Positions 7,421 through 64,000 of a stretch of DNA of 64,000 bases are shown piece after piece. Source of the stretch: Rhizopus arrhizus (lineage: Eukaryota; Mucoromycota; Mucoromycetes; Mucorales; Rhizopodaceae). A program made the position numbers and the translations under genes. The stretch is from the NCBI GenBank assembly GCA_024220505.1, contig JAKZZE010000031.1, positions 186,001 through 250,000 on the forward strand. The letters are read 5' to 3'. How positions within the stretch are numbered: the stretch's first letter is position 1; every line of letters begins with the position of its first letter. The notes under the pieces are model-generated. The model was not told where the DNA came from. It searched no databases and worked only from the letters and a program-made list of their open reading frames with translations.

Positions 7421-7431
7421 ATTAAGATAAA

Positions 7432-9024: not shown

Positions 9025-9025
9025 G

Positions 9026-9038
9026 TATTTTTGGATAT
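9026..9038 (+). repeat. target-site duplication of the LINE (5' side)
   Basis: Exact copy of 3262-3274. It fixes the 5' end of the inserted LINE at 9025. Confidence 0.88.
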
Positions 9039-9180
9039 GATTTTTATAATAAAGCTTTTTGATACTTTCCCCATTTAGTAAATAAAGGCATTGAATACTA
9101 ACATACCCATTATTCTGAAAATTAAACATCGACTAAATTTCCCTTTTTCTGTAACACTGCCGCTTTTATACAAACTGAAT
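9039..9180 (+). repeat. LINE target flank, related to 25770-25875
   Basis: Shares long blocks with 25770-25875 (for example gatttttataataaa and actaaatttccctttt followed by acactgcc). Together with 3236-3274 it reconstitutes the interrupted target. Confidence 0.7.
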
Positions 9181-14074: not shown

Positions 14075-15142
14075 TCAGAGGTTGTTATCAAAATTGGAAC
14101 TTGCATCATGAAATATCTCCTGATCTTCCGGTACTGGGAGGACTGTATTGGTAAAGTCGACGTTAGTCAGATGCTCGCGTCGATAATGTTGTTCGAATAC
14201 AGTGGAGGACGACCAGTTTCCAAGAGTAATAATATCATCAAGGTCGATGCCAGCACGGAGAGCAGCAGAAGACGCCAACGAGCGAAGGTTGACACGTGGT
14301 TCGCTGGTAGAAAGCCGAATCAATCGACGTATCCAAGAACTAATAGTTGTGACCTTGACAATTTGCGTGGTCATACTGGTGTTGACGAAGAAAGAAGTAA
14401 CTGTAGGTTGGGGAATCAGGTGAGCAAGACGATCTCTGATGGCTTGAAAAGTAGCAACAGGACACAATGAAGGATCTTGGTGGCTGTATACGCGGAAAGG
14501 TTTGATGATACGACGGCCAGCACGGCGTTCCTTAGGTGCTACAACTTGAAAGGAAAGGCACTGGCGATTGCGTTCAATTTCGATATTTGCCGTTGCAAAA
14601 TCAATTCTGTGTAGGTCCGAAGGCCGTAAGAAGGCAGCCATACCCAAAAGAAACGCCAATTTTTGCTGTAGATGAGGCAGCGGAGTAGACAGATCGTTGA
14701 TATCAATTAGGCGTACTGCTTTAAGTGAAGGGCTCATATCAACAGTGGGGCGATGAATTGGCTGAGGAGGAGCCTTGGACTTAAGAGAAGCTACAAGCGA
14801 ATTAACGATGGTGCTTGAACGTAAAGAGGAGGGCTGTTCATGTAAGTGAGTGACTGCCGATCGGAATAGACAAATGGTGGAGTGATTGTAGCCACGGACT
14901 TGAAACATTTCCGAAAGGAAATTGGTGAGATGAACATCGGTGAAGGACGTAAGCGAAATATCTTGAGCGAGAGCCCACTCGATGAAAAGGATTTGACCAC
15001 GTTTATATGATTTGTTGGTGGTAGTATCCATCAGACGTGGTGCTCGTAGCAGAGAAGTAGACATAGCTGTTAGTCCTGGTGTTGAGGATGAAGCCCCGAG
15101 AGCCTCCAAACGGAGAGCTTCCACTGAGGCTGAAGTGGCCAT
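14075..15142 (-). CDS. DIRS tyrosine recombinase
   Basis: The recombinase domain occupies the last 356 codons of a frame that stays open back to 17320; an ATG at 15142 (MATSASVEALRLEAL) is a plausible start. Motifs are FLLGMAAFLRPSDLHRIDF with the first catalytic Arg, then NLRSLASSAALRAGI with the second Arg, GNWSSSTVF, and the nucleophile region EQHYRREH. The usual His of the HxxR box appears as Asn here, as far as can be read. The enzyme integrates the circular cDNA without an integrase. Its start overlaps the end of the RT frame by 73 bp. Confidence 0.88.
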   Translation of the reverse strand: MATSASVEALRLEALGASSSTPGLTAMSTSLLRAPRLMDTTTNKSYKRGQILFIEWALAQDISLTSFTDVHLTNFLSEMFQVRGYNHSTICLFRSAVTHLHEQPSSLRSSTIVNSLVASLKSKAPPQPIHRPTVDMSPSLKAVRLIDINDLSTPLPHLQQKLAFLLGMAAFLRPSDLHRIDFATANIEIERNRQCLSFQVVAPKERRAGRRIIKPFRVYSHQDPSLCPVATFQAIRDRLAHLIPQPTVTSFFVNTSMTTQIVKVTTISSWIRRLIRLSTSEPRVNLRSLASSAALRAGIDLDDIITLGNWSSSTVFEQHYRREHLTNVDFTNTVLPVPEDQEIFHDASSNFDNNL

Positions 15143-16992
15143 GGCGTCAGTGTCGTGGTGGTTTGTATGTCGTTGTGTGACAGGAAAAGAGGAGGATGAA
15201 GCGCTAGACGATGTAGTAGGGGGAACCAGATTGCCGTCGGCCAATAAGGTACTACCAGTGTGATTACTGGGACTTTCTCTCTCTGAATTTTTTCCAGGCA
15301 GCGCAAGATCAGGTTCCAGGGGGGGTTGGCGTACGGATTCCGTAGGTTGTTCCAAGGAATGGTGAAAGCATCGATCCTCCATGCTCCTGGATCGCGTTTC
15401 CACGACACGTACTTTTCTAGGAGGTTGCTTGTCCTGTCTGCAAATAGATCCACCCCGTGAGGACCCCATAGAGACTGAAGGAGGCTGTTGAACACTTCCG
15501 GTTTCACTTGCCAAAGATTTTTTGTAAAAGATCTTCTTGACTCGTAGTCCGCTTCGCAGTTGTGTATACCTGATACGTGGCTGGATATGAGCATTAGACC
15601 TCGTTGAAGGCACCACTTCCACAGGGTTGTTGCAAGAGTCATCAGGCTGAATGATTTCGTTCCCCCTTGCTTGTTGATGTAAGCCAAGGAGGTGGTGTTG
15701 TCCGTGCGAATCAGGACTGTTGTGTTGGTCAAGTGAGGGAAGGCTTGGAGGGCAAGGAAGGCGGCTTTCAGTTCTCGCCAGTTGATGGACATCTGGGCTT
15801 CCTGGGCGGTCCAATAACCATGGGCACGTTGAGTTAGATAGGCACCTCCCCAACCTGTGTTGCTGGCATCGACATAGAGTGTATGTTCTGGTGTTGAAGG
15901 AAGAAGAGATCGACCATTCCATTGTTTGAGGTTCTTGAGCCACCATTGTAGTTCCTGGATGCTGTCTTTGGACAACAAGTGTGGACGATCCCAGTCTGGG
16001 TGAGACTTCATGAGGTGATTCTTCAATTGCAGCAAGTGTTGAGTGTAAAGTCGCGCAGGAAATATCGCGAAAGTTGCTGCTTGTATCCGCATAATAACAC
16101 TCTGTATAGTGCGGGGAGTTGATGTAGGTTGTTTTATCAGTTGCTGAATGGATTTTCGCAGATCCCGAAGCTTCTTGCCAGGCAAGCGGGCCGTCATCGT
16201 TTGTGTATCCAATTCGAAGCCAAGATGCTCTAAGGTTTGTGTTGGTTGAGTCTGAGACTTCTTCAAATTGATCAGCCATCCCAGAGACGTCAAGCATTGG
16301 AGTATCAACTGTGTGTGCCTCATAGCTTCGGCTTTTGTCTTGCCTAGAATGATCCAGTCGTCGAGATAAGCACTCAGACGGATACCTTGCTGACGAGCCC
16401 ACTCTAAGATGGGCTTGGTTATCTTGGTAAACCAGTAAGGCACGATAGACAGACCGAAGGGTGTTGTCTTGAACTGGTAGACCGAGCCTTTCCAGTGGAA
16501 GCGCAGATAGGGTCGATGTTCTGGGTGGACTGGAAGGTGAAGAAAGGCATCGGACAAATCGATTGATGTCATGTAGTCGCCAGGTTGTACCATAAGAGAG
16601 ACTTGCTGGATGGTTTCCATCTTGAAGTGAGGGCAATCTACATATTGATTCAGTGTGCGCAGATTGAACACTGGTCGACAGCCGCCAGTCTTCTTCGGGA
16701 TAGTAAACATGGGGCTGACAAAACCTGGAGACGGTTGGTGGTGGGGCACAGGTTCGATCGCCTGTTTGGTGAGTAGGTCTTGAATGGCTTGGTCCAATTG
16801 AAGTTGTTGGTCGTTGGACAATTGATGTTGATGAGGGGTGAAGTCTGTTGAGAGAGGTGGTAGCGTGTGAAAAGGTATTTTGAAGCCGTGTTGAACGACG
16901 GTATTCACCCAATTGTTGTGAAAAAGTCGATCCCAATGGGGTGAGAACAGTTGGAGTCGACCGCCTACAGGAGGCTGGGAATGAGCCGCCAA
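15070..16992 (-). CDS. DIRS reverse transcriptase-RNase H-NPPW domain protein
   Basis: About 640 codons. RT motifs include PKKTGGCRPVFNLRTLN, SIDLSDAFLHLPVHPEHR, TPFGLSIVPYW and the catalytic YLDDWIIL near residue 212. The RNase H block contains YVDASNTGWGG and RTDNTTSLAYINKQGG. It is followed by the DIRS/Ngaro-type region with LFADRTSN and YANPPWNLI near residue 553, sometimes described as a methyltransferase-like domain. The first codon of the open stretch near the gag stop is TTG, not ATG, and the frame stays open further upstream into gag. Expression by frameshift or non-AUG initiation is therefore likely and the true start is unknown. Confidence 0.92.
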   Translation of the reverse strand: MAAHSQPPVGGRLQLFSPHWDRLFHNNWVNTVVQHGFKIPFHTLPPLSTDFTPHQHQLSNDQQLQLDQAIQDLLTKQAIEPVPHHQPSPGFVSPMFTIPKKTGGCRPVFNLRTLNQYVDCPHFKMETIQQVSLMVQPGDYMTSIDLSDAFLHLPVHPEHRPYLRFHWKGSVYQFKTTPFGLSIVPYWFTKITKPILEWARQQGIRLSAYLDDWIILGKTKAEAMRHTQLILQCLTSLGWLINLKKSQTQPTQTLEHLGFELDTQTMTARLPGKKLRDLRKSIQQLIKQPTSTPRTIQSVIMRIQAATFAIFPARLYTQHLLQLKNHLMKSHPDWDRPHLLSKDSIQELQWWLKNLKQWNGRSLLPSTPEHTLYVDASNTGWGGAYLTQRAHGYWTAQEAQMSINWRELKAAFLALQAFPHLTNTTVLIRTDNTTSLAYINKQGGTKSFSLMTLATTLWKWCLQRGLMLISSHVSGIHNCEADYESRRSFTKNLWQVKPEVFNSLLQSLWGPHGVDLFADRTSNLLEKYVSWKRDPGAWRIDAFTIPWNNLRNPYANPPWNLILRCLEKIQREKVPVITLVVPYWPTAIWFPLLHRLALHPPLFLSHNDIQTTTTLTPWPLQPQWKLSVWRLSGLHPQHQD

Positions 16993-16997
16993 AGGTG

Positions 16998-17972
16998 TTA
17001 TTGGCGACTCTGTTGCCGAAAGGGATTGTTGTTCTTTGGATGGGCGCCAGTGGACGTTGCTTGGCGGTTGCCCTGTTGACGGGAGTGGGAGTATTGGTGC
17101 GTGTAACCGCCGTGCTGAGACGACGGACCTGGCCGAAAAAACGGCTGCGTATCGGCAGTAGAGGAAGTGTGGCTGGTACCGAGCGTGCTATTCCCAAATT
17201 GGGTAGGTCGAGAAAATTTTTCATTGGGAGATCGTTTAGAATAGCGAGGACCAATACGAGCTTCGCGCAGTGCCTTGGCTGCGGAGGTCTGTTGTGTGAT
17301 TGCTTGATGAAAATCTTCACTAGCCATAGTGTATTTCTTCAGAGCACCAGGGGCAGGGACAGTAAAACGAGGATTTACTGCGCGCATAGCGATTTTATTT
17401 CTATTATGTGTAATAGTTGCACAAGCGTTGATGAGCAATGTCCGAGCGTGGTTGAGTATGCCAAGGTGGCGTTCGAGTGCCTCAGAAGGTACACTGGTGG
17501 ACTGCAACATCTCATTGCCCAAGACATCCAAGGGGCGGAAGACACCAGAGAGCAAGTACTGAAGATCACGCAAGGAAGAATCCTCCAGCTGTTGGGCCTT
17601 ATTCATGCAACGGTGCGCCGTTGGCAAGGTGGAAGGAGGTTTGTACTCAACATTGCGCAGCGCAGGGTAAGCTTCAATCAGCTCCCGGCGTTCATCATCG
17701 GTAAGGATGTGCTCCGTTGAGAAGAGATCTCTGTCTAATTGTAAGCCCTGGGCCAAAATCTCAGGAGGGGACCAGTCAAATTGGGGACGAGTACCCAAAG
17801 AGTGCCAAGGGCTTGGAGCAAGGTGTGACGAATCCATCATCATCTGTGGATCCGGTGTGGTTTGAGGCATAGCAGCCTGTTGTGAAGCCATTACTTGTTC
17901 TAATAGTTGGCGAGTTTCTTGCAATTGTTGTTGCAGGGTAGTAAGATCAGTAGTTTCTTGATTATGAGACAT
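16998..17972 (-). CDS. DIRS gag-like protein
   Basis: 324 residues from the ATG at 17972 (MSHNQETTDL). The N-terminus has a Gln/Leu-rich coiled-coil-like stretch (LQQQLQETRQLLEQVMASQQ). A middle part (LDRDLFSTEHILTDDERREL) resembles other DIRS ORF1 products, and the C-terminus is basic and Ser/Gln/His-rich, fitting nucleic-acid binding. No zinc knuckle is seen. It ends 5 nt before the conventional RT open stretch, in a different frame. Confidence 0.75.
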   Translation of the reverse strand: MSHNQETTDLTTLQQQLQETRQLLEQVMASQQAAMPQTTPDPQMMMDSSHLAPSPWHSLGTRPQFDWSPPEILAQGLQLDRDLFSTEHILTDDERRELIEAYPALRNVEYKPPSTLPTAHRCMNKAQQLEDSSLRDLQYLLSGVFRPLDVLGNEMLQSTSVPSEALERHLGILNHARTLLINACATITHNRNKIAMRAVNPRFTVPAPGALKKYTMASEDFHQAITQQTSAAKALREARIGPRYSKRSPNEKFSRPTQFGNSTLGTSHTSSTADTQPFFRPGPSSQHGGYTHQYSHSRQQGNRQATSTGAHPKNNNPFRQQSRQ

Positions 17973-18022
17973 GTGTAAGTGAATTATCAAATCTGACGGT
18001 AATGACCTGAGCGGAAAAGATG

Positions 18023-18138
18023 ATCAAGGAACAATTATTATAAAAATCTTATCTTTTATTTGTATTATTTTTAACGTTCCGCTCAATAAACCAATAAGAT
18101 GATTAAAGCATATATATTATTCTTCCTTGTGTTTGTCC
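18023..18138 (-). repeat. DIRS right inverted terminal repeat
   Basis: Reverse complement of 13795-13910. Confidence 0.93.
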
Positions 18139-42702: not shown

Positions 42703-42993
42703 CCGACTGGAAAGTGTAGCGTCTTTCTGTAAGCAGAGTTGCAGTCTATGAAAGGATGAATTCATCTGTTGATGGAATCACGGTATATTCAACGCTTTGT
42801 CGAAATCAGTGTCTTCCAGAGTCTGGTGTCAACATTCGAGCTCGGGCGTAGGCCTGAGTTGGGAGGTTGTTCAATACTGGGGAACCGCCCGAGGGTAGCA
42901 ATACAGCAGGGAAAACTCAGAGCACTGGCACGGCTGTAAGATAGCACGGTGGAGAAGTGATTGAATATACTACCATTGCGGGTGGGAACTACC
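42703..42993 (+). ncRNA. SRP RNA (7SL)
   Basis: A GC-rich island about 290 nt long. The S-domain is recognisable: helix 6 (GGTT 42865 with AACC 42883-42886), then gaACCgcccgAGG, a GTA-GCAA-TAC hairpin with a GNRA loop (42895-42904), the invariant AGCAG (42905-42909) and AAAACTC. These match the helix 8 consensus ACC..AGG..GNRA..AGCAG..AAAAC. Helix 5 closes with CTGAGTT (42854) and AACTCAG (42914), and further out GGTATATTCAA pairs with TTGAATATAC. Upstream, an Alu-like fold is plausible: GACTG 42705 with CAGTC 42742, an inner GAAAG/CTTTC hairpin, and the UGUAA motif at 42728. The T5 run follows at once. The RNA is the core of the signal recognition particle. The Alu part is less certain than the S-domain. 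Confidence 0.85.
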
Positions 42994-42998
42994 TTTTT
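42994..42998 (+). terminator. pol III T-run terminator
   Basis: TTTTT directly after the closing 3' strand of the inferred SRP RNA. Confidence 0.65.
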
Positions 42999-43129
42999 GA
43001 TTTTATTCATTATGAGAATTTTAGTATTTGATTGTTGTAAAACAAGAACAAACAAAAGGAATGAACTTTTGGTATAATCTTTTCGAACGATCCAAAAGTT
43101 AATATCGCCAATCAAATCTAACCAAACAG

Positions 43130-48200: not shown

Positions 48201-50626
48201 AAATAGACTATCAATTTTATTCGGTAATAGTGAACATATTTGATGTATGTGGTTAAAAAAGAAATAAGAGGAATAGCTTGCATTGATAGCTAAAATCATA
48301 AAAATAATAACATCAAAGTTGCTACTATTTGTCCATATTGAAGATACAACGTATATTAAGATCTTGCTCAGGTACTTCCCAATCTTTTATATTTCTACAT
48401 TAGTTGATTGGGGTTTTTCTAGAATAAGGATGAAAGGCTTCAGAAGTTTAGATGTACAACAAATACCAATATGTCAATATGAGAGAGCTTTAAATATCGC
48501 TAATGTTTATTACTATTGTTAAAGCTAACATTTGACTGTTACAAGTATTTTGCATTTCAATGTTAAAAAAGAGGGTATGCTGAGCTATTGGGAATTCTTC
48601 TGTGTTAAGGATGCTTATAATTTCTTTCTCAACTCTATGCTTTTTTTTATCAATCTGTATACAGTTGATGGAATGTTATACGCTGTGATCAAAGACAAAA
48701 GAAAAGGGTTTGTCCATTGCAAACAAAGTATGTTTTATAGTCAAAACATAGATAAAGTTATCTAACACTGACCATATAACATAAGTTTGCCTGTTACTTC
48801 TTTTTCTTTCACATCGTTTACAGATTCTCTCATCCCCCTCTTCCTTTCCTTTCACCAACTCATCCTCAATATGTCCTCATAATCACTGTTGTATGAACCA
48901 TCTTTGCTGGCGCTTTGTTTGCTTCATGTTTGAATCCATATTTTGTCTCCTATGCAATGACATGACCTCTTTCTTATCCTTGCTATAAATACAAAAGATG
49001 TCATATTACATCATATTTGATCGATAGCTATAACAATTCGTTTGCAAGCCTATCATATTGAATATATCATTGCTTTTCTTCTACTCTTTAGCTTTGACCC
49101 GTGTACTTTCAAAATCCATACAGAATACCTTTTTCTTTTTTTTTCTTTCTTTTTTTGTGAAGCATAACAGCGAATACATTTTACACTACTTCTTTGTATC
49201 TTGTAGAAAAGAAAAGTCGAATACAGAAAACTATAGAAGTGAATCTATGAGAGTCGAGATTGAAAGACGGAAACAAAATTCCAACCTGTCTCAGCTTTTT
49301 TTTTTTTTTTTGACTTTTCTGTCTTGGGAATTCTTCAAGTCTAAAGCAAGTTCCACACTTTGGTTCAGTCAGGGTCGTCAAGTTATATACGCTGCTTTCT
49401 TTTAGAAAAGCTTTGTTCATTATTCCTTGTAATTAGCTTTTGTTATTAGAAAATAAAAGTAAATAAAAAATAAAAAAAAGAATGGTCAATGTGTCAAGCT
49501 AACTCTTTTGTGGATAAATTATTACACTCAACCAGTATGGAATCATTCTATTAATATCATATCCATATACAAAAGTCGTACCTATTGTCACAGTGATACA
49601 GTGTAACGATCTAAAAAAGGATGCTTGAATCGCCGTTTTGCTCATGGTGCACTCAATTTAGAACCCGTTTCTCTTTTACCCTTTTCTGAATTTGGTCATC
49701 TCGTACACAGTCAGTCTGCAAAGACTCGACCTACTTGCTTACTTTTCCATATATGCTGATGTCTCTTTGTCATATTCTCAATTGCATCTATAACCATTAT
49801 ATAAAAAGAGAGAGAGCAAACACATTCTATTTCTTTATTTCATCGGCATGCAAATAGAAATAAAACAATCTTTTATTCGCTACAGCGTCTATTAGTTACA
49901 TGCTATCATCTATGCTTATAAGCAAGTAAGCGATACATTATTAAGTTCCTTAAAAGGAAGGTGAAATGAGAAAGTCGGTGTAAGTATGGTTACACGATAT
50001 GCCTTATTAGTCTAGCTTACCTACTTGCCTTTAGCTTCTTTACTCATCCCTCCTCAATCTCCATCATTCCTGCAAACATACTCTTTCTTAACTAAATAGC
50101 TTTAGACATATAAAAAGCAGAAAAAAAGGAAACAGCCAAACAAAAGAACAGTAGTAGTTACTTTTTCATCTCTTGTCTTCATCTGAATGCAAACCTGCAT
50201 GTGGAAAATAAAAAAACAAAAGAAGCTTTCTAAAATAAAAATAAAAAAGGAAAGCAGACAAATCATACTATTAATATACTGAGTATTTAGCATACATACT
50301 GACTGAATAACAAAATAAAATAAAAGACTTGGCTCACCACTCATTAGATTCCTTTTGGGAATGTTGACTAAGGAATCTCAACTTTACCACCAGCTTTTTT
50401 CTTTTTGCTTTTCTTTTTCTTTGCTTTGGCAATTATATAACACCTGGCCTTATGTTTATTTCATTACACAACTTGAATTTTCAATTAAAAGAGTAGAGAT
50501 AGTATTAGAGAAATGCTTAGTATAACAAGTGGTTTAAAAACAAATAAATGGCTTAGGCAAAAAGCGAAAGGTAAAAGACAAGAGCAATATTTAGGATTTT
50601 TTTTTTTTCAAAAGTGATTTTTCATT
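45211..50626. other. long gene-poor AT-rich tract
   Basis: 5.4 kb with no gene supported. The short ORFs at 48.3-49.4 kb have biased composition and no conserved motifs. No tRNA or snRNA was recognised. Confidence 0.5.
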
Positions 50627-50632
50627 TTTATT
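50627..50632 (-). terminator. AATAAA polyadenylation signal after ribozyme
   Basis: AATAAA on the minus strand, 20 nt after the ribozyme 3' end. Confidence 0.45.
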
Positions 50633-50651
50633 TAATATAAAAAAAAAAGCT

Positions 50652-50728
50652 GACATTGTTAGCCATATTTTCAAAACGAAAATATGTTTCCAGGCACCGC
50701 CACGTGGAGGCCATGTCTTTAAGTGCCC
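50652..50728 (-). ncRNA. HDV-like self-cleaving ribozyme, diverged copy
   Basis: Read on the minus strand from 50728: P1 GGGCACT pairs with GGTGCCT; P2 GACAT pairs with ATGTC; P3 GCC/GGC encloses the L3 loop TCCACGT. GG after P1 can pair with CC of L3 (P1.1). P4 is CATATTTTC with GAAAATATG. J4/2 is GCTAACA, with the catalytic-type C. The order P1-P2-P3-P1'-P4-P2' is the nested double pseudoknot of HDV ribozymes. Compared with 53156, the P4 bases differ on both strands but still pair. Predicted cleavage is just 5' of G50728. Confidence 0.85.
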
Positions 50729-50874
50729 TTCGCTTTCGTCCTAGTTATTCTGCAGAGGAAATCGACATTGACTCAGCAACTTGATGGGAGGAGCGGTTCT
50801 CCCACCAAGTCCCGGGCAATGAACAAAACGCCAACAGTTACAAAGAAGAAAATGATTTTGTAATTTTGGCTCCT

Positions 50875-50883
50875 CCTTTTATA
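50875..50883 (-). promoter_or_regulatory. TATA box upstream of ribozyme copy 3
   Basis: TATAAAAGG on the minus strand, 155 bp before the predicted cleavage site. It is almost the same box as at 52951. Confidence 0.6.
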
Positions 50884-52343
50884 CTTTTTTTCTTTAGAAA
50901 AATTATTTGAAAAGAGGTCACTTTCTTAACAGTCAAACCAAAGTCACTTGCAGCAAAAGGATTTCATTTGTTCCTTTGGTTACATACGAGTACTAATTCA
51001 GTAATTTTCTTTTTCCTTCATTCCTTGTTCAAAATTAAATATTGCTCCTTGTTCTAAATAATTCAACAGCATAGTCCGTATTAATACTCCTTTCCATTCA
51101 CTTTATGCGGCGCTCCGTACAAAAATAAGATAGCTTTTGGACTGATAACTAAAGTCACGGACCTTATTCGCTAAAATTCGTCTGAGATGACTTCGGAATA
51201 TAGAATTTATAGCTTTTTGTCGACAATATAATACAAACAGCTCACTATATTTCACTATACAAAAGAATCATTCTTCAATAAATACAAATATTGGATATTT
51301 ACCCTACCAACGATACCATAAATTCAATACAAAGCAGATTATTAGCTGTTATAAAAATTATTAATTCCTAAAAATAACCTATCACATTTTATAACAAAAA
51401 AGCTTTATAGTTAATTTATTATATATTTTTACAGCTAGATATTATGGCATAGAGCTATGACCACAAAATTAAGCATATAAAGTCTTATAATCAATAATAC
51501 AACAGAAATAATCAAGTTCATATGAGAGCGAATGGGAATGTTTATGATTACTAATACATAACATGACTTTGCTGTTCAGCTCATGTTTTGCACGTCCATA
51601 TAACCCACTAATGTTAAGCATACACAGTCCAAAATTCAATAACATTTAATTTAATCTCATTAAATCGTATGCTTCATTATACTACTATTCATTCAATACA
51701 CTGAACATGACATATAGAAAGATCCTGCTTATTTTGTCTTCATCGATTAAAAAAAAAGCTTTGGTATTCTAGTCATAGGATATTTCCTTTATTAACAAAC
51801 ACGGAAAGCAACTATTCACAACAACCATAGTATAAAAAGATGAGCATGTAATAAAGCAATAAAATCTTTTGTGATTTGCTCATTTTGAACACAACAGCGA
51901 CCCTTTCTATTCTTATTGGCCACAAAGTAATACTTTTCCCGAATTTGTACAGTTTGTGAAGTATTAGCAAGAAATCAGTTGTAAACATGTCAAATGTAAA
52001 GGAAGGAACTAAGATTCCGTCACTCATAAACTCTTCTTTCTAAACACTTTTATTGCTAACCAGCTTTGTTTCATACTTGCTTAATAATATAGTTCGACTA
52101 TTTCCAAAAACAAATTTGATACTAACAAAAGGAGTAAACTAGATATACATTGAATGAAACTAGATTTATTACCAAGCAGTAAAAGAACAGCACAGAAGAG
52201 AACATAGCATAGAAAGAACAATGAGGGATGATATGTTCACAAAGTATCTCTTGATGCTTCTTCATATTCAATTCCATACAAAGGAATGAGTAGATAAAGG
52301 ACATGATAACCCTCTTTGACTTAATATCTTTCTGGAAAAAGCC
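50884..52343. other. gene-poor AT-rich DNA
   Basis: No ORF or RNA gene supported. The inverted-repeat arm may begin further left than 52344, but its partner would lie beyond the window. Confidence 0.45.
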
Positions 52344-52950
52344 ATCATTTTATTCCATTCCTTCTTCTTTATTTTATTTGACGTGATTCATGCTAGAGAA
52401 AATAAAAGGCGTTGGTTATTTCTAGTAATAAAGTGACATATGAAGTAGACTTGACTTACATTCCATAAAAGACTGTAGCATCATCATTATGCAATATTGA
52501 ATCCTAGTCTATTAATTCTGGATCTATAGAACATTATTATACTTTTCGGAGACCTTGTAATTCTAAATCTTTTTATATGCTTCCTTGTCGACTGAGAGTG
52601 ATGACTAGGTCAAAGTAAAATGATCATGTAAAACCCTAGGACTTGTGCTTCATTGGTTCTAAGGACGAATTGACTAATTTAGTATAACAACAAGCTTTGC
52701 CGCATAGTTACTTACTGGTAATGTTTCAATATTATGACGATAAAGGGTAGAAAATGATTGAAGATGCTAGTTTCTTTTAGATTTTGACTGATGAATGATA
52801 CGATAAAAGCTTGAAGAGTGAGAGAAAGACGGATTCTCATGGTTAAAAATGTAACAAACGGACTATTTTGCAGGAGCTTTTTTTTTTTTTTTAATTTCTT
52901 GTCATCGCGTCATACCAACACAGACTAAGCTTTGATAAAACCAAAAAATG

Positions 52951-52960
52951 TATAAAAGGG
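52951..52960 (+). promoter_or_regulatory. TATA box upstream of ribozyme copy 1
   Basis: TATAAAAGGG, 205 bp before the predicted ribozyme cleavage site. A leader of about 175 nt would precede the ribozyme. Confidence 0.6.
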
Positions 52961-53155
52961 AGCTAGATCCGATATCTTTTTTCTTTCCTTCTCTATCAAT
53001 CATGACAGCACAGTAGATCAGCAACACTGAGAGAGTTACAGAGTTACAACCATACAACTCTACAACTCTACACCTTTACCAGTTCAGCAGGGGCTCTTCA
53101 AGTCATTGCTTACGCTTTATCTGATTCTCCCCTTTTTGGAAAAAAGAACATAGAA

Positions 53156-53237
53156 GGGCACCTATTCGACATGGCCACCACGTGGCGGTGCCTGGAAACA
53201 TGTCTTTACTATAAAGACATGGCTAACAGTGTCGAAT
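53156..53237 (+). ncRNA. HDV-like self-cleaving ribozyme, copy 1
   Basis: P1 GGGCACC (53156-53162) pairs with GGTGCCT (53087+100: 53187-53193). P2 ATTCGACAT (53164-53172) pairs with GTGTCGAAT (53229-53237). P3 GCC (53174-53176) pairs with GGC (53184-53186) around the L3 loop ACCACGT. L3 CC (53178-53179) can pair with GG 53194-53195 as P1.1. P4 is CATGTCTTTA (53199-53208) with TAAAGACATG (53212-53221). J4/2 GCTAACA follows, with C53223 in the place of the HDV catalytic cytosine. P1' begins directly after P3', as required. Cleavage is predicted 5' of G53156. No ORF follows; an AATAAA lies 30 nt downstream. Confidence 0.88.
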
Positions 53238-53267
53238 TTAGTGCATGTACTTTTATATATCCTATGT

Positions 53268-53273
53268 AATAAA
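53268..53273 (+). terminator. AATAAA polyadenylation signal after ribozyme
   Basis: AATAAA 30 nt after the ribozyme end. Together with the TATA box at 52951 it defines a candidate transcription unit of about 0.3 kb. Confidence 0.45.
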
Positions 53274-53952
53274 ATCATTCTTTGTCTTTCTTCATTTTTC
53301 TCTGTCTCTTTCTCATGTTAATTACATTGTTTACTATATTCTTTGACTTGATTCATGTCTTCAAAAAAGTCCACTAGCTTCATGTATATCGATCATCACC
53401 CTTAGTGTACAAAGGAAGAGAGCTGAAATAGATTTGTATAATACTATGTAAATATTGAGACAAAGTACCAACCATATACCCTTTATAGCCTCGGTCCTAT
53501 TACCTTTTACAAATAGTATGATCACAACAGTTGATCTAAAGTATACTTTGCTATTCTTTCTTGGTTGAGCTTTCATTGTTCGTTGTTCATTCACCATTAC
53601 TTTATTATTTGTTTATTACTTGTTATAGCAATGGTATTGTTAGCAGAGAAAGAGGGTGTTCTTGTGAGTGTACAAAAAAAAACATATGCCAGCCAATATT
53701 CTCTGTTGATGAACGAAAAGTATTCAAATAAACCATGAAAGAAGCTCCCTTATCCTCTTAGAGATATAAGTAAAGTAATAGAGTATGTTGTCAGAATGAC
53801 TTACATTATGTTGTCCATTCCTTCTAGATTGACCCATCTATTCAACTTTTTCCTTCACAGAAAGTAGATCTGGACGACATTAGGACAAGCAATTTCACTT
53901 TGTAACACAAATATATATATATTTGACAAGTACTTACGAAGTGAATAGAAAA

Positions 53953-54000
53953 TAAAGGGAAAGGGAAAGGGAAAGGGAAAGAGAGAGAGAGAGAGAGAGA
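53953..54000 (+). repeat. simple repeats (GGGAAA)n then (GA)n
   Basis: Four to five aaggga-type units followed by about ten GA units. Mirrored in the right arm near 62344-62391. Confidence 0.9.
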
Positions 54001-54879
54001 AAAAAGGAAAGAAGAAAAAGAGAGAACAAAGAAATAGGATCGACAACAATGTGCCTTAATTGATTTCATTGTCCGTCAATGACAGACAAGATCACGTGAA
54101 GGATACTGACCTTGTCGGATATTAGTTTATCCATAACTGTACTTGACCTTATTTCCATTTATGGGTATCCTTATTTTCCTCCCTTTTCTTAGTCATTCTT
54201 TATAAAGACACTTTTCTTCACATCCTCTAGTCACTGTGCCAGAATAGTGTAGAATGGAGAACATGGCTTTGTTTGTGCTTTCGCTTTTTTTTTTATAGAC
54301 TAATTAGTTTACATCGGAATGCTTGATTCACTATTGATAAAGCTTTACAGTATCTTATAAAAACCCTCTCAAACAGCCTTTTGTGTACATGAAAAGCAAC
54401 TAAGCCGCATATATAAATAACATAGAGAAATAGTACAAGGAATGTCTTTGTAAATGGGGATTTATTAAAAAAGATATAGATTGATCAAGTGTAAGACCTT
54501 AAGATTGTCACTGAACAGTCTCATAGTGACTGATCTCACTGTCCTATTACTTGTTCTATCACTTCTTACCTTGTTTGACATACATGAATAATAAGCATGT
54601 ATAGCATGGCTATGTCCATTATAGGCAATAGAGGATAAGCTCTACATGATGACTTTTGTCTATTACTGTATCATACCTTGTCATGTAAACTTGCTATTGG
54701 ATGATCAGCATTGATGGTGGATTGCGAGTAACTGGTTGCTATAGTGAAGCCATGTACGCATAGTCTTGTATCTCTCCTAATTTTATAGTATTGCCATAGT
54801 AAATGGATCTTGACTAGATCCATATATATATACCCATGGTTGATCTATCACAATCACTTTCACAAGCACGGTCCTCTCT

Positions 54880-55589
54880 GTCTTCGAAATGAACCATTCC
54901 TTTGCTGTCTTCTTGCTCTTGTTTTTCTTGTCTCTGATCTCTTTCTTTCTTAGATAGTTTGTCCTTTACTCTACTTGGATTCAAAAGCATACAGAATTCT
55001 ATCTATGATCCATGGCTATTTCTTTGTTTATAATGATATAGCACATACTTTCATCGTCATCATCTTTTTCTTCTTCTTCTCTTTCTTCTTCATAGCGTTA
55101 TCCATTCATACTATTTCCTTTCTATTCATTATTATTCCATTTCCTATTTTTGTTGACTGAGGTTGCACTATGCTTAAAGTATTGGCTACTACTATCTCTC
55201 TGTTCTCTATACTTCTATTTCTATTTGTATTTTTATTGCTTGTTTCTTATTTACTTCAAATTATGTGGTGATTTCAGTAGACAAGCGTCTGTATTCCTGA
55301 ACTAAGGCTTTTCTATCACTCTTCTTCCTTTTTCTTTCTCATTCCTCTTTGTTTGATGTGTAGTTACTAGTCTGTTTGTTGAGCTGCTCTAAACCGCTTT
55401 TCGTATAGGAAGAATAGGTCTGGTAACATCTTTCATAGACTTGCTTTCGTCTGTTTGTGTCTTTTGCTATAAATTAAGCTTTTTGCTTGTGTAAAAAGAC
55501 ATGGAATAAACACGAAAGGTAAAGAAAAAAAAAAGAGAAAACAAAAAGGGAAAAGGAACCATCTTTGTGCAACTCCATCATCTCTGCTA
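54880..55589. other. spacer of inverted repeat, no gene
   Basis: T/C-rich low-complexity sequence with no supported gene. Confidence 0.5.
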
Positions 55590-56148: not shown

Positions 56149-57700
56149 AATCTCAACATCAAAGGTAATCCAATAAACACAAAGTCTCTTTCTCTTCCTC
56201 TTCTCTTCTCTTTTATTCATTTATTGATGGATCATTTGTTTAAAGCATCATCTTGTATCAAGCCATGTACATACAATGACTAAACATTTGCAGCTGTCTT
56301 TTCCTATTTTCATCATCTTGTGTCAGTTATCTTGACTTGACCTACTCTACACATATTCATCTCCTGAATATCACTGTCCATTGTTGCATAGTCAACTACC
56401 AGATATACTTCTCTTATAGACCTTCCTTTAGCTATCGCTTTTGTTTTTGTTTCGATAGATAAATAATTGATGCTGCCATGACCTCATTTCCTCTTTAGAT
56501 CCATTCTTTGTCTTCCATTGTCTATAACCATTGCTCTTTCTTTTTTTCCCTTTTCTTTTTCCTTTTCTTTTTATGTAAGTACATGTATATTGTTCCATAT
56601 ATCTACTAGCATAGGCCATACATCCTATACAATATTGTAGCTGAAGTAAAAGTAAAGGGTCATCATAGGGTTGACTATTGATACTGTTATTACTGCTTCT
56701 GCTTAGACTGTCTGTTTTGAAGCTATTATGTAGAGAGTGTCCTAACTTTAGAGTTTGGCCAAATAGCTTTGTTTATTATTCCTCTTCTAATTACTAAGTT
56801 AAATCATATTTTGTTGTGTAGATCCTTCTTTTTTCTTCAGTTGCTCTGTTACAGTTGACAATTTGCTTAATTAATGTTAAATTGCATTTGAGGTTACTGT
56901 GAATTATAAACAGAAAAGAAATAAAAATAATAAAAATAGAAGCCCTGCTAAAGAGGTGGGATTGGTTGTAACTCCGTCCTATATACACACCATGACATGT
57001 GCCATATAGTGTAGTGTTTAACAGCTGGACTAACTCATAGTACTCTTCAGTCTGACAGCCTATAGAATCGTATACTGTAATATTATTTAGAGTGTCTTGT
57101 ACAATAATATGATCATTGGTGAAAAATGTGATTACGGCGATAGGTGGTCATTCTGGCATATGATTGGCTAGAGTGTATCAGAATAATGCTAACCCGAATT
57201 ATTAGCCTTGTACTTTAAAGAACCTCCCAAAAAAAAACAAAAGGAAAGCTGAAAAATAACACTTAAATTATAATAACACTATAGTGGAGAACAGAGAGAA
57301 CATATACTAGATGTCATGTCTTTTTTGATTCCCATCTTCAATTCCATGTTTTTGCTTGACATCAGAAACTCGATAACTTGAACTTTTTCTTTACAACTTT
57401 TGCCATTCAAAAGGGTATCACTTATTGGTTATTTGAACGTACTTTTGAATAAGCAAAGCATATAAAAATGGCTGAGAAAAAATTACAAGAAAATGAAGAG
57501 AATGCTTTTTTTTTTTCAGTACTAGAAATACTAAAACATATATAATAGATACTCACGTACTCGAGTTCAATATAAATAACAACATTTTATTGCATGCATA
57601 CTTAATAATCTTGGGTTCTTTATTCTTTGAACCGTTACTAAAACTTTGGAGCGTCATGACTGGCTTTATTATGCTTGCAAATCCTTTTTTTTTCTCTTTA
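56149..57700. other. gene-poor spacer
   Basis: AT-rich; nothing supported. Confidence 0.45.
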
Positions 57701-60700
57701 CTATGAGCGTTGTAAATGGCAACATCTTTTTTTACAGTTACCCCTCCAGTCTACTGTCGTCTGTGAATAAACGACTAAGTGCGTCTAGGACAATATTTTT
57801 AATGCCAGGACAATCAACAACATTAAATGAACATTCGAAGATTGTTTATAACCAAAAAAGCATGGCAGCATTTAGAACAACTTACTCCTTGATATAAATC
57901 AAGGCTTTGTGATCAGTTGTCAAGTTAAAATGACGGCTATATATCCATTTGTTATATCTCTCAAATATGAATACAGTTGCTTACAACTCTTGTTTGTTGA
58001 TATGATAGTAACGTTTAATAGGAGGAAGAGGTCTTGCAACAAGGCGTTATATTTGATTTCTTGATTGATGGCTTGATAAACGACACTACGGATACCATAA
58101 GTACTAGCACCCGCTGCAACATAGAATGGGTACTTAAGGTTAGGAATATGAATGACCAGAGCATTCACCAAGATATCCTTTATATTACGAAAACTTCAGT
58201 AGTAAGACGTTTCAACGCTTTGCAAACGTACTCAGCACGTTGACTCATATAACCGGAGCTGAAGACACATAAATCATCAATATAGAGTGCAGTGTAAGGA
58301 AGGTCTGCTAACAAATTTGTAAGAACACGCTATACAACGTTATTGGTATTTGTTAAGCCAAAAGAACAATGACGAAATTGATACTGCATACCAGTAAATG
58401 GATGAGCAAACACGGTTTTGGGTCTATCAGATCCCTGGATGAGAAAACGATGGAAGCATGTTCGTATGTCAAAAGTGGTAAATACAGTAGCAGAATCCAT
58501 ACGTTGATGAAGATCACTGATTAGAGGTAAGGGCATTCTATCAACATTCTTCACAAGTTGGTTAAGCAGACATGGATCAACAACTGCTCTTTTCTTAGTG
58601 TATAATCTGTTGACATCCTTTTTTCCAACAAGAAAAATAGGGTTATTGAAGCGAATATTGGAAGGAGCAGGCTCAATGACACAATCATCCAATCAAGTTT
58701 GAATTTGGTCTTCCATGATCTTTCTATTAGCAACAGCAACATCAGATTATCTTCGATAAGCAAAGGCATTGGGCTCAGTATCAAGAGTGATGATAGCACC
58801 AGGTAAATTGCAATGAGAAGACATAGGGATACTTGTATTGACATCTAACAAAGGTTGAATAGTGCTCATCAAATGATGTCTATCCTGCATAGTGTCAACA
58901 GGAGCTTCATTTGGCTTATAGTCATCAGGGTTAATTGGATCAGGTATTTTAGGAATATTAGAAATTAACCAGGAAGTAGCTACTCTTGTTGAACCTACTC
59001 TTAGTTTAGGTAAAATGCCAAGTCCTAAATAAATGGGAACATCACTGCTACAATCAAACACTTTGAACTCATGTGATAAACGGATTTGGTTGTAATAAAC
59101 AGTAAAATTTGTTATACCTAATGGGCTTGCAGTACTTGAGCTACTATGTCCTAACTCGATCGAACCTTGATTAGGTGTTGGAACTAAACCAAGTGCCGAA
59201 CAGAACGAAGGAGACACACACGAAAAAGACGAACCGGTATCAATCATGGCCCATGTTTTGATGTGCTCTATAATAATAGGAACATAAAGCATAATAGTGT
59301 TTGAAGGCGCTTTGGAAAAGATGTGATGTATGATGTACTTACAGGTTTGAGCAACTTCAGTCACAGTGGAGGCTTCTATAACATCAGTGCCCATATCATC
59401 CGACGAATTGGAAACAGGAACAACGGGACCAGCAGCATTAGTCTTACGATCAAAAGAGACATCACTATTACCTGCAGTAGGATTGGCAGAAGAACCAACA
59501 GAGACAGGGGTACCATTATCAGAGGAAGCAATGGAAGACAAGGAAGAAGCAGGGGATCGACTCATTGCTCGAAACATGTGAGAAGATCCAGCAGAGTCGT
59601 CAGCCAAGAAATCGGTTGAACGGCCTTTTTCTTTGCATCGGTGACCAGGACGCCAGTTGTCAGCACCACAAGAGCGGCACGGACGTCCCAAACCGGAAGG
59701 TTGGTTTCTTGGATTCCACTGAGAGGCAGCAGAACCAGATGAGACATCAACTTGGGTAGAACCTGAAGAAGGAGAAGAAGAGGATGCTTTCTTCACAGCG
59801 TGACATTCATCGTCGCTATGGTTGGTGGCCTTGTGGAAGTTGAAATACTTCTTAGAATCCTTTGGATAAAGTGCAGTATGAGCAGCAGAACCAAAGATAA
59901 AACCAGAAGATTCCTTTTGACCAGAAGTGGAGTCATTGACCATCGAAGGGCCAGCAGAAGTGTGAACAGCGTTGGCAATTCTACGAACTTTGTACAATGA
60001 ATAGTAAAAAGCCTTGGCCAACTTTACAACATAGTCGACCGATTCCTTCTGAGCGTCCATGCAGTTGGCTAACGACACAATCACTTTCTTGTAAATGTCG
60101 GCCTGAAGACCGATCAAAACGCAATGAGTCAAGACACAGCGACCTTGGATTTGTGCCAAACGACGGAGGTTGTTGAAACGCTCAACATACTGGTCAACAG
60201 TTTCAGCAGCGGACATAGAGATGCGTAGCAACTTCGTTGTGGGTGTGGCTTTTTCTTCAGCCGAACCAACACCAAAAAGCCTTTTTGAACTGACTCCAGT
60301 TATAGACATCCTCCTTTTCTTGATATCCATCAAGCCAAGTACGTTGCCTCGAAAACAAGCAATGAGGGAGAAGACGAAGCCAATATTGATCAAGACCAAG
60401 ACCATGTGCGAACACTACGTCCTGGTGTTTTTTCAAGCAGTGCTTGATATCCACAGAGACAGGGGCAGATGGGCCAAGGACCCCACCCTTCCACTGCATG
60501 AGGGGTCGGTTTGGAGGTACGACGTTCAAGGCTGCAGGAGCAACCCCAGGAGCACCAGTCCAAGCTGTGGGTACAACATGGTTCATGGCTTTTTGAAGGA
60601 GATCTCTAGTATGAACTTGTCTCTTCAGGTCATTTGAGCAGGTTTCGTACTTAGCGTGCACCATGTTGTCTTCCTCTGAATGAGGCGTCGTAGAAAGAAG

Positions 60701-61383
60701 ACGAACAGATAAGTTAAGGGTAACTTGAGTGACACCGATGATGATGGAATCCAACTCCTCAATAGAAGAGGCTATTGAAGGTGAAGCGATTTCAGGTCCA
60801 ACAGAACCAGAAGAAACTGCGGAAGAGGTCATTCCAGAGGACTGTGCCTCTGAAGATAAGATGGATACATCTGACATACGGCGAACGTTATCAGGATGGA
60901 TTTGATCATTACTACTAGAAGAACCAGCAGCAGAAGAGTTGGAGCCATTAGATTTAGTCATGTTGAGAAAGGTAGGTAGTGACAAACAGAGTTTATTTTA
61001 AATGTAAAAATCAATAAAGAATTCTCAAAAGAAATTGCTTTGCCAAATATAAAATACAAGATAAAAACTAAAAGTAAAAAGACAATAGTTGTAAAACTAA
61101 AAATTATGTATCTATAACTTCATTGATAAAACAATTGCGGCTATTCATGCTTTTTGAAAGTCTGGGCCCTTACCGTTATTTCAATTGATCGGTTAAAAGT
61201 AATGATATGGAAAGGATGGGAATATAAAGGAAAGCTAGTGAATAAATATTAGTCATCCTCTGCTTGACGAAGCGAGGAATAATGAAGTGGATAAATTACT
61301 GATCTGGCAATAATTACCGAATAGGATTGCATTGAACTGTCATGCCTAAAATTAGGTTATAAATAGTTGTTGGGATACCGACA
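57700..61383 (-). mobile_element. decayed Ty3-like LTR retrotransposon (5' LTR side)
   Basis: On the minus strand: a possible LTR from about 61383 (TGTCGGTATCCCAACA start, tttataacc TATA-like, attctttattg before its end), then the leader motif TTTGTCACTACC just before the gag ATG. Gag, protease, RT and RNase H remnants follow. No integrase or 3' LTR was found, so the 3' end is lost and 57700 is approximate. Confidence 0.7.
57900..60961 (-). pseudogene. Ty3-like gag-pol remnant
   Basis: The first ATG is at 60961 (MTKSNGSNSS). Gag runs in one frame to about 60270, where a one-base shift at a homopolymer stretch moves to the next frame (SAEEKATPTTKLL onward to 58747). That frame includes a CRSCGADNWRPGHRC cysteine motif and an aspartic-protease motif AMIDTGSSFSCVSP. 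RT pieces continue with further shifts and stops: NPIFLVGKKD, FTTFDIRTCFHRFLI, FGLTNTNNVV, then YIDDLCVFSSG. An RNase H trace (PFYVAAGASTYGIRSVVYQA) lies near 58.1 kb, with Gly where the family's first catalytic Asp of the DAS motif is expected. Clearly inactive. Confidence 0.85.
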
Positions 61384-63106
61384 CAAACAATAGGGCAGGG
61401 ATCGCTATTGCAGAAGTCTCATATTTATTAATACAGAGAGCAGAAACAAGAGAGAGACAGAGAGAGAGAGGACTGTGCTTGTGAAAGTGATTGTGATAGA
61501 TCAACCATGGGTATATATATATGGATCTAGTCAAGATCCATTTACTATGGCAATACTATAAAATTAGGAGAGATACAAGACTATGCGTACATGGCTTCAC
61601 TATAGCAACCAGTTACTCGCAATCCACCATCAATGCTGATCATCCAATAGCAAGTTTACATGACAAGGTATGATACAGTAATAGACAAAAGTCATCATGT
61701 AGAGCTTATCCTCTATTGCCTATAATGGACATAGCCATGCTATACATGCTTATTATTCATGTATGTCAAACAAGGTAAGAAGTGATAGAACAAGTAATAG
61801 GACAGTGAGATCAGTCACTATGAGACTGTTCAGTGACAATCTTAAGGTCTTACACTTGATCAATCTATATCTTTTTTAATAAATCCCCATTTACAAAGAC
61901 ATTCCTTGTACTATTTCTCTATGTTATTTATATATGCGGCTTAGTTGCTTTTCATGTACACAAAAGGCTGTTTGAGAGGGTTTTTATAAGATACTGTAAA
62001 GCTTTATCAATAGTGAATCAAGCATTCCGATGTAAACTAATTAGTCTATAAAAAAAAAAGCGAAAGCACAAACAAAGCCATGTTCTCCATTCTACACTAT
62101 TCTGGCACAGTGACTAGAGGATGTGAAGAAAAGTGTCTTTATAAAGAATGACTAAGAAAAGGGAGGAAAATAAGGATACCCATAAATGGAAATAAGGTCA
62201 AGTACAGTTATGGATAAACTAATATCCGACAAGGTCAGTATCCTTCACGTGATCTTGTCTGTCATTGACGGACAATGAAATCAATTAAGGCACATTGTTG
62301 TCGATCCTATTTCTTTGTTCTCTCTTTTTCTTCTTTCCTTTTTTCTCTCTCTCTCTCTCTCTCTTTCCCTTTCCCTTTCCCTTTCCCTTTATTTTCTATT
62401 CACTTCGTAAGTACTTGTCAAATATATATATATTTGTGTTACAAAGTGAAATTGCTTGTCCTAATGTCGTCCAGATCTACTTTCTGTGAAGGAAAAAGTT
62501 GAATAGATGGGTCAATCTAGAAGGAATGGACAACATAATGTAAGTCATTCTGACAACATACTCTATTACTTTACTTATATCTCTAAGAGGATAAGGGAGC
62601 TTCTTTCATGGTTTATTTGAATACTTTTCGTTCATCAACAGAGAATATTGGCTGGCATATGTTTTTTTTTGTACACTCACAAGAACACCCTCTTTCTCTG
62701 CTAACAATACCATTGCTATAACAAGTAATAAACAAATAATAAAGTAATGGTGAATGAACAACGAACAATGAAAGCTCAACCAAGAAAGAATAGCAAAGTA
62801 TACTTTAGATCAACTGTTGTGATCATACTATTTGTAAAAGGTAATAGGACCGAGGCTATAAAGGGTATATGGTTGGTACTTTGTCTCAATATTTACATAG
62901 TATTATACAAATCTATTTCAGCTCTCTTCCTTTGTACACTAAGGGTGATGATCGATATACATGAAGCTAGTGGACTTTTTTGAAGACATGAATCAAGTCA
63001 AAGAATATAGTAAACAATGTAATTAACATGAGAAAGAGACAGAGAAAAATGAAGAAAGACAAAGAATGATTTTATTACATAGGATATATAAAAGTACATG
63101 CACTAA

Positions 63107-63188
63107 ATTCGACACTGTTAGCCATGTCTTTATAGTAAAGACATGTTTCCAGGCACCGCCACGTGGTGGCCATGTCGAATAGGTGCCC
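63107..63188 (-). ncRNA. HDV-like self-cleaving ribozyme, copy 2 (mirror of copy 1)
   Basis: Exact reverse-complement copy of 53156-53237 in the right arm, with the same P1-P4 pairings. Predicted cleavage is 5' of G63188 on the minus strand. Both arm copies point toward the spacer. Confidence 0.88.
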
Positions 63189-63383
63189 TTCTATGTTCTT
63201 TTTTCCAAAAAGGGGAGAATCAGATAAAGCGTAAGCAATGACTTGAAGAGCCCCTGCTGAACTGGTAAAGGTGTAGAGTTGTAGAGTTGTATGGTTGTAA
63301 CTCTGTAACTCTCTCAGTGTTGCTGATCTACTGTGCTGTCATGATTGATAGAGAAGGAAAGAAAAAAGATATCGGATCTAGCT

Positions 63384-63393
63384 CCCTTTTATA
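63384..63393 (-). promoter_or_regulatory. TATA box upstream of ribozyme copy 2
   Basis: Mirror of the TATAAAAGGG at 52951-52960. Confidence 0.6.
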
Positions 63394-64000
63394 CATTTTT
63401 TGGTTTTATCAAAGCTTAGTCTGTGTTGGTATGACGCGATGACAAGAAATTAAAAAAAAAAAAAAAGCTCCTGCAAAATAGTCCGTTTGTTACATTTTTA
63501 ACCATGAGAATCCGTCTTTCTCTCACTCTTCAAGCTTTTATCGTATCATTCATCAGTCAAAATCTAAAAGAAACTAGCATCTTCAATCATTTTCTACCCT
63601 TTATCGTCATAATATTGAAACATTACCAGTAAGTAACTATGCGGCAAAGCTTGTTGTTATACTAAATTAGTCAATTCGTCCTTAGAACCAATGAAGCACA
63701 AGTCCTAGGGTTTTACATGATCATTTTACTTTGACCTAGTCATCACTCTCAGTCGACAAGGAAGCATATAAAAAGATTTAGAATTACAAGGTCTCCGAAA
63801 AGTATAATAATGTTCTATAGATCCAGAATTAATAGACTAGGATTCAATATTGCATAATGATGATGCTACAGTCTTTTATGGAATGTAAGTCAAGTCTACT
63901 TCATATGTCACTTTATTACTAGAAATAACCAACGCCTTTTATTTTCTCTAGCATGAATCACGTCAAATAAAATAAAGAAGAAGGAATGGAATAAAATGAT

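Follow-up and report, generated by a model that had tools for sequence, protein, structure and literature searches.

A family of HDV-like ribozymes in duplicated noncoding DNA of Rhizopus arrhizus, with a natural L3 allele

Results

Features of the window

The window, by which we mean the whole 64,000-nt stretch of Rhizopus arrhizus DNA that was analysed, contains three HDV-like ribozymes. A type A ribozyme with an impaired-looking allele (A53177) occupies 53156–53237 (+), and its predicted cleavage site is 5′ of G53156. An identical mirror copy with the same A at the U20 position lies at 63107–63188 (−), and a ribozyme of type B lies at 50652–50728 (−). The original prediction had described a lone motif at 53156. 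The motif is real, but it belongs to a family with 32 or more copies, and its two companions in the window had been overlooked.

The B and A units are held in the left arm of a large inverted repeat (49657–54883 (+)), which is 99.9% alike to the right arm at C25:247461–252687; the part of the right arm within the window covers 61461–64000 (−) and the arm extends beyond the window end. The arms are about 5.2 kb long, nearly perfect, and flank a spacer with retroelement remnants. Such a nearly perfect inverted repeat suggests a recent duplication or gene conversion. The remnants (58333–60414 (−)) consist of aspartyl protease (21.4 bits) and RVT_1 (23.0 bits) matches, both below cut-off, and lie on the same strand as the mirror copy, 2.2–4.9 kb downstream of 63188 and not directly adjoining it. 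The earlier statement that no ORF follows the ribozyme was right for 53156 (+), but it does not extend to 63188 (−), where these other-strand remnants are found downstream. Remnants of this kind occurred near the window copies only, and no stretch of more than 150 bases from the spacer (57700–61038) was matched in the other units compared.

Elsewhere in the window, a LINE-type element (3455–9132 (−)) has an ORF with endonuclease, RVT_1 and zf-RVT domains and an upstream 566-aa ORF without a Pfam match. A second reverse-transcriptase element (14075–18023 (−)), which may be DIRS-like, contains overlapping long ORFs with an RVT_1 match of 79.1 bits and an RNase H match below cut-off. An SRP RNA gene at 42706–43002 (+) matched the metazoan-type model RF00017 at 130.9 bits, above the gathering cut-off of 70. 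The fungal origin of the DNA was borne out, as the genome has chitin synthase matches and none of 14 control genomes matched; the chitin synthase family is fungal.

Fold of the type A ribozyme

All of the claimed HDV helices were found in the sequence at 53156–53237, in the correct order for a nested double pseudoknot. P1 (53156–53162/53187–53193) has 7 bp beginning with a G·U pair, P2 (53164–53172/53229–53237) has 9 bp ending with a U·G pair, and P3 (53174–53176/53184–53186) has 3 bp. The 7-nt L3 (53177–53183) contributes to the 2-bp P1.1 (53178–53179/53194–53195), and the 10-bp P4 (53199–53208/53212–53221) is followed by J4/2 (53222–53228), which reads GCTAACA. The 3′ strand of P1 directly adjoins that of P3, as had been claimed. 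A detail absent from the first reading is the unpaired G53173, which separates P2 from P3. A P2 of 9 bp is peculiar to this allele; most others lack the outer pairs. J4/2 carries a catalytic-type C at 53223 within C-N-R-A, the pattern characteristic of this position, and GGCTAA or GGCCAA was present in all 32 copies. The minimum free energy fold of the 53156 copy had a z-score of −2.93 by a method that is blind to pseudoknots.

Our own HDV descriptor specified a P1 of 6–7 bp, a P2 of at least 5 bp, a 3-bp P3, CC/GG in P1.1, a P4 of at least 4 bp and C-N-R-A. It found two places in the 64-kb window, 53156 (+) and the mirror copy 63188 (−), and 200 dinucleotide shuffles of the whole window gave five hits, or about 0.025 per window. 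This descriptor is strict, detecting 21 of the 30 copies in 10-kb stretches and missing the type B copy of the window.

Comparison with Rfam models

A cmscan search of 53150–53245 (96 nt) aligned RF02682 (HDV-F-prausnitzii) end to end, over model positions 1–74 of 74 with the start at 53156 (26.2 bits, E 0.0015), but this score was under the gathering cut-off of 44. RF01787 (drz-agam-1) matched the same segment at 18.0 bits (E 0.095). The cut-offs for RF01787 and RF00094 are 37 and 50, respectively, and every HDV-family score that we obtained was below gathering (26.2 versus 44 in the window; 35.7 versus 44 and 28.7 versus 50 for type D), a threshold that is set by curators and is not a trait of the HDV-like class.

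Copies of types A, B and D each aligned to RF02682 from end to end. In a scan of six 10-kb stretches (60 kb) at E≤0.5, this model scored 35.7 bits on type D (E 0.006), 30.7–33.6 bits on B copies (E 0.019–0.085) and 28.2 bits on type A (E 0.33). Type D was the best Rfam match among the types, and in a 131-nt scan it matched RF02682 at 35.7 bits (E 1.3e-5) and RF00094 at 28.7 bits (E 0.0082). HDV families were absent from the whole-window scan at gathering and from a scan of 301 nt (53050–53350) at E≤10, and the 60-kb scan at E≤0.5 listed neither the 53156 allele (in L009) nor the type C copy in L016. Matches to S4-leader, miRNA, snoRNA and lncRNA families were rejected, all of them being below gathering. 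Plant miRNA models matched L023:7316–7504, L022:2281–2504, L016:9154–9334 and L017:6523–6672 on both strands, also below gathering; these matches mark long inverted repeats in the ribozyme units.

Copies and types in the genome

The genome searched comprised 50,257,186 bases in 41 contigs. A 201-base query found 28 places, and a core pattern found 32, compared with none for the reversed pattern. The family thus has at least 32 copies, located on four of the 41 contigs (C22, C24, C25 and C26), which fall into types A (13 copies), B (11), C (4) and D (4). This count is a lower bound because only the best candidates were scored and the core pattern was strict. Surroundings were covered by 10-kb stretches for 30 copies and by 3-kb loci for the other two.

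A covariance model, R1, was derived from types A, B and C (14 distinct sequences), with type D excluded. At E≤1e-6 in the 19 sources holding copies, R1 found the 32 copies and nothing else; type D was recognized at 38.1 bits (E 6.3e-9). At E≤10 in 24 sources there were five weak extra matches (E 0.32 four times and 6.9 once). The A, B and C ribozymes are about 79–87% alike where their flanks no longer match. In type D, P1 and P4 are largely different and P2 and P3 are altered, with the same core; its P1, P3 and listed P2 pairs are all standard. The type B copy in the window, which is divergent to type A, scored 110.9 bits with R1 and 31.1 bits with RF02682 (E 0.069; L009:6649–6727), and it has U at the U20 position. 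With its core bases intact, 50728 is, judged by sequence, the copy in the window most likely to be active.

Covariation of the helices

In the 14-row alignment of types A, B and C, 94.6% of the 428 cells were paired and 20 cells were changed on both sides, neither of which was reached in any of 500 shuffles. Double changes affected five of the 31 pairs, a number reached in 44 of the 500 shuffles, and further pair types were not raised (14 versus 16.2 in shuffles). When type D was included, 95.8% of 448 cells were paired in 16 distinct rows and 13 of the 28 pairs were changed on both sides (each 0/500 shuffles), in an alignment (A2) that was fitted to P1, P3 and P4 of R1 and not to P2 or P1.1. 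Sliding the partners in this alignment reduced the doubly changed pairs to 0–2 and the paired cells to 34–47%. Further pair types were again not raised (22 versus 20.7; 78/500 shuffles).

P2, which lies outside the A2 fit, still had three doubly changed pairs. It is the weakest helix (85.7% of cells paired), in which the inner five pairs are present in all rows and the outer two are lost in nine and seven of the 16 rows. P1.1 is invariant and therefore uninformative on covariation. The four type C rows have one unpaired P4 position as aligned. Helices are kept by compensatory change in 13 of 28 pairs. The assignment to the HDV-like class made by the original prediction is upheld by covariation over the 32 copies, by the Rfam HDV models (below gathering) and by type D, which was outside model building. 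We conclude that the HDV fold at 53156 is real.

An altered L3 nucleotide in the 53156 allele

The first L3 nucleotide of the 53156 copy, A53177 (+), was placed by the RF00094 alignment at U20 of the genomic and U23 of the antigenomic HDV ribozyme. The Rfam consensus has U at the equivalent position, and T is present in 30 of the 32 copies; the two with A are the 53156 copy and its mirror copy 63188. Because types B, C and D all carry U, A is the derived state. Both P1.1 C residues and the L3 G were kept in all 32 copies.

An L3 U·G pair (U20·G25 genomic, U23·G28 antigenomic) is reported to be needed in HDV, and a U23A mutant of the antigenomic ribozyme is reported to be inactive (PMC3386971). 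This pair can form in 30 of the 32 family members and is lost from the 53156 copy and its mirror. Because A53177 corresponds to the U23A change, the 53156 copy is probably impaired. By analogy with HDV, both copies that lost the U20 equivalent are probably inactive or very slow, although A53177 may be tolerated in the 53156 copy. The claim that this particular copy cleaves itself is thus not supported as it was made, given the reported inactivity of U23A (PMC3386971). The family is HDV-like, and the 53156 copy is best described as a structural member that, on the same analogy, is probably inactive.

Promoter-like and poly(A)-like signals around the ribozymes

A TATAAAAG box at 52951–52958 (+) is 205 nt upstream of the predicted type A cleavage site, and an AATAAA poly(A)-like signal at 53268–53273 (+) begins 30 nt after the ribozyme. 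The predicted 5′ transcript leader would span 52980–53155 (+), with the transcription start placed by inference. The type B ribozyme is preceded by a second TATAAAAG box, 155 nt away at 50876–50883 (−). Within 450 nt upstream, TATAAAA occurred once in 13 of 13 type A copies (−205 to −313) and in 11 of 11 type B copies (−154 to −160). TATAAA was found upstream of type D in four of four copies (−228 to −234) and within 300 nt upstream of type C in none of four. AATAAA followed the ribozyme by 17–70 nt in all 32 copies. In these counts, copies belonging to one type are not independent of each other. Moreover, words of this kind are frequent in DNA of 34% GC, where 0.23 TATAWAWR and 0.34 AATAAA would be expected per 150 nt; for GTATAAAA, the form in A and B, the expectation is 0.022 per 150 nt.

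Most other type A leaders are longer than 52980–53155, with a 16-bp tandem repeat that varies in copy number. Type B leaders occur in three forms with kept ends and a replaced middle (L009:6732–6830, L023:3907–4007 and L026:3430–3525 (−)). None of four leader stretches was consistently structured (z-scores of −2.06, 1.58, −0.33 and −1.02), and a structured-leader reading was dropped on account of this inconsistency.

In 50-nt bins, the mean pairwise identity of the A leader was 0.78–0.99, lowest in mid-leader, with 0.99 in the first ribozyme bin; that of the B leader was 0.74–0.85 versus 0.99 in the ribozyme. The first half of the ribozyme was 0.988 alike in both A and B, compared with 0.876 and 0.894 for the surrounding 2 kb, means that are pulled down by ends not common to all copies. 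The type D ribozyme was identical in four of four copies, with a mean of 0.941 over 1.1 kb and nearby flanks reaching 0.96–0.99. Because some flanking stretches of types A and D are kept as well as the ribozyme (0.97–1.0 per 50 nt), the contrast between ribozyme and flank is modest taken alone. The type C flank was 0.998 alike over 225 nt, and conservation of the region upstream of type A was no better than that of much of the duplicated block.

Arrangement and coding content of the duplicated block

Outside the inverted repeat, the other units are about 83–98% alike over kilobases, with homologous flanks on both sides. Types B and A diverge in 11 of 11 cases, 2.4–2.6 kb apart (about 2.45 kb in the window), and two A copies had no B found nearby. 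Type C lies 6.6–6.7 kb from a same-strand A (4/4) and type D 4.5–4.6 kb from one. The block is AT-rich and exceeds 15 kb in the C26 units. One type C copy (L051) is situated in a GC-richer stretch, in which GCTTGGT repeats precede the ribozyme and repeated AATAAACTTTTTTT units follow it.

The original prediction of noncoding DNA held, as no sizeable ORF is kept across copies. In a C26 unit, 10 of the 21 ORFs of at least 75 aa were tested and had no Pfam match at E≤0.01. A coding reading was dropped: the best kept ORF has 37 aa, and although all 13 matches at ≥92% leave it open, this is by our informal judgement unremarkable in DNA so alike. Three other readings of the surroundings were also rejected. 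A centromere was set aside because the copies are restricted to four of the 41 contigs and two C26 units have a protein kinase ORF between them. For paralogous contigs, relatives of the gene at 32453 were found elsewhere, with none on C22, C24 or C26 among 39 matches. The flank of type C does not behave as a dispersed repeat, since among the 28 candidates scored none but the four C copies matched beyond the ribozyme.

Discussion

The ribozyme itself is not a new class because fungal HDV-like ribozymes are known; it is the genomic context and the allele that are new. PMC5640933 reports 230 fungal HDV ribozyme variants in 26 species, states that constructs from two species cleave, and describes the variants as typically having a C–G cleavage-site pair and loop E in P4. 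A fungal host, varied genomic places and an extra P2/P3 nucleotide (alignment column 23 in our family) are common to those variants and the present copies. The cleavage-site pair differs, being G·U in 13 of 16 distinct rows and G–C in three, and P4 was judged by eye to be a plain hairpin. Among the titles and abstracts searched, HDV-like ribozymes in noncoding repeats of this kind were not found, and fungal ones appeared only in PMC5640933. RF02682 shares with the fungal copies the helix order, L3 and the GGCUAA joining segment; the fungal copies differ in scoring below gathering, in their longer P4 and in residing in nuclear DNA instead of a bacterium. With RF00094 and RF01787 they share the core CCUCC..CG L3, the GG of P1.1 and GGCUAA, whereas the helix sequences differ, scores are below gathering and no delta-virus genome was seen around the copies. 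The R2 and L1Tc/ingi ribozymes (PMC8256844, PMC4035085) are likewise multicopy and of the same class, but here no non-LTR retrotransposon ORF was found downstream and the copies probably multiplied by block duplication.

We consider it reasonably probable that these sequences are an HDV-class ribozyme family located mostly near the 3′ end of short noncoding Pol II units and spread by block duplication. Each unit would consist of a TATA box, a leader of about 130–290 nt, the ribozyme and a poly(A) signal, and the positions of TATA and AATAAA suggest transcription by RNA polymerase II. The transcript would fold into the nested double pseudoknot, in which, by analogy with HDV as for the other base roles, the C75-equivalent C would act as general acid, and cleavage would occur immediately before the first P1 G. 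The predicted products are a capped leader that ends in a cyclic phosphate and lacks poly(A), and a short polyadenylated 3′ piece containing the ribozyme. Two options can be envisaged: the leader could be the product, or the cut could remove RNA while transcription continues. The second is slightly favoured because the leader is poorly kept. The copies would have spread as a large AT-rich noncoding block was duplicated, rather than through retrotransposition.

The copies might instead be decayed 5′ ends of non-LTR retrotransposons or of short nonautonomous relatives, in the style of R2 and L1Tc/ingi, at whose 5′ ends HDV-like ribozymes are known (PMC8256844, PMC4035085). The genome has a LINE-type element (3455–7450 (−)), remnants lie 2.2–4.9 kb downstream of 63188 (−), and past the type B ribozyme an AATAAA leads into an A-run whose length varies. 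We regard this explanation as unlikely: no retrotransposon body lies directly downstream, the remnant spacer had no match among the other units compared, the 10 of 21 C26-unit ORFs tested had no Pfam match, and the 32 copies are confined to four of 41 contigs. Moreover, homology between copies extends for kilobases to either side of the ribozyme, a pattern that segmental duplication leaves; the TATA boxes precede the position at which an element would begin; and inspection by eye showed no target-site duplication at B. Integration of a viroid-like or delta-like replicon with a small circular RNA would account for ribozymes on both strands, as A and B are about 2.45 kb apart in opposite orientation. 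Yet A and B point away from each other with TATA boxes in the interval, the block exceeds 15 kb in C26 units, is AT-rich and keeps no sizeable ORF, and of five viral contigs with the 17-base core none contains a ribozyme by R1 (one partial match, E 6.9), which makes such an origin highly improbable. Chance resemblance in AT-rich DNA, to which the Rfam scores under gathering might point, has a negligible probability given the 0.025 descriptor hits expected per window and the separate D type, and it is refuted by covariation.

It is also conceivable, but we think rather unlikely, that selection no longer acts on the ribozymes, which would be remnants of a once functional family riding in a duplicated noncoding block in which some members have decayed. 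The 53156 allele, with a change that kills HDV activity, and the unpaired P4 position in the C rows would fit decay, and blocks about 83–98% alike with flank parts kept as well as the ribozyme (0.97–1.0 per 50 nt) would fit passive carriage. Against this stand the 13 pairs changed on both sides, the greater likeness of the first half of the A and B ribozymes (0.988) than of their surroundings (0.876 and 0.894), the identity of the D ribozyme in four of four copies against a 1.1-kb mean of 0.941, and the retention of U20 in 30 of 32 copies and of both P1.1 C residues and the L3 G in 32 of 32.

Returning to the noncoding Pol II units, we tentatively offer a more specific and more doubtful version, in which they would be dedicated self-cleaving noncoding RNA genes that multiplied with the noncoding block. 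Transcription would persist while every transcript severed itself from its tail, with either a tail-less leader or transcription itself being what counts. In that case the 53156 copy would represent a naturally occurring catalytic knock-out that reached both arms of the inverted repeat through duplication or gene conversion.

HDV-like ribozymes of understood role are described as mostly serving retrotransposons or delta viruses (PMC8256844). Here, four types with a total of at least 32 copies occur in one fungal genome, in surroundings that do not resemble a transposon, with promoter-like and poly(A)-like signals, together with a natural allele changed at the L3 base whose loss abolishes HDV activity. 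This makes the role of HDV-like ribozymes in host genomes directly testable.
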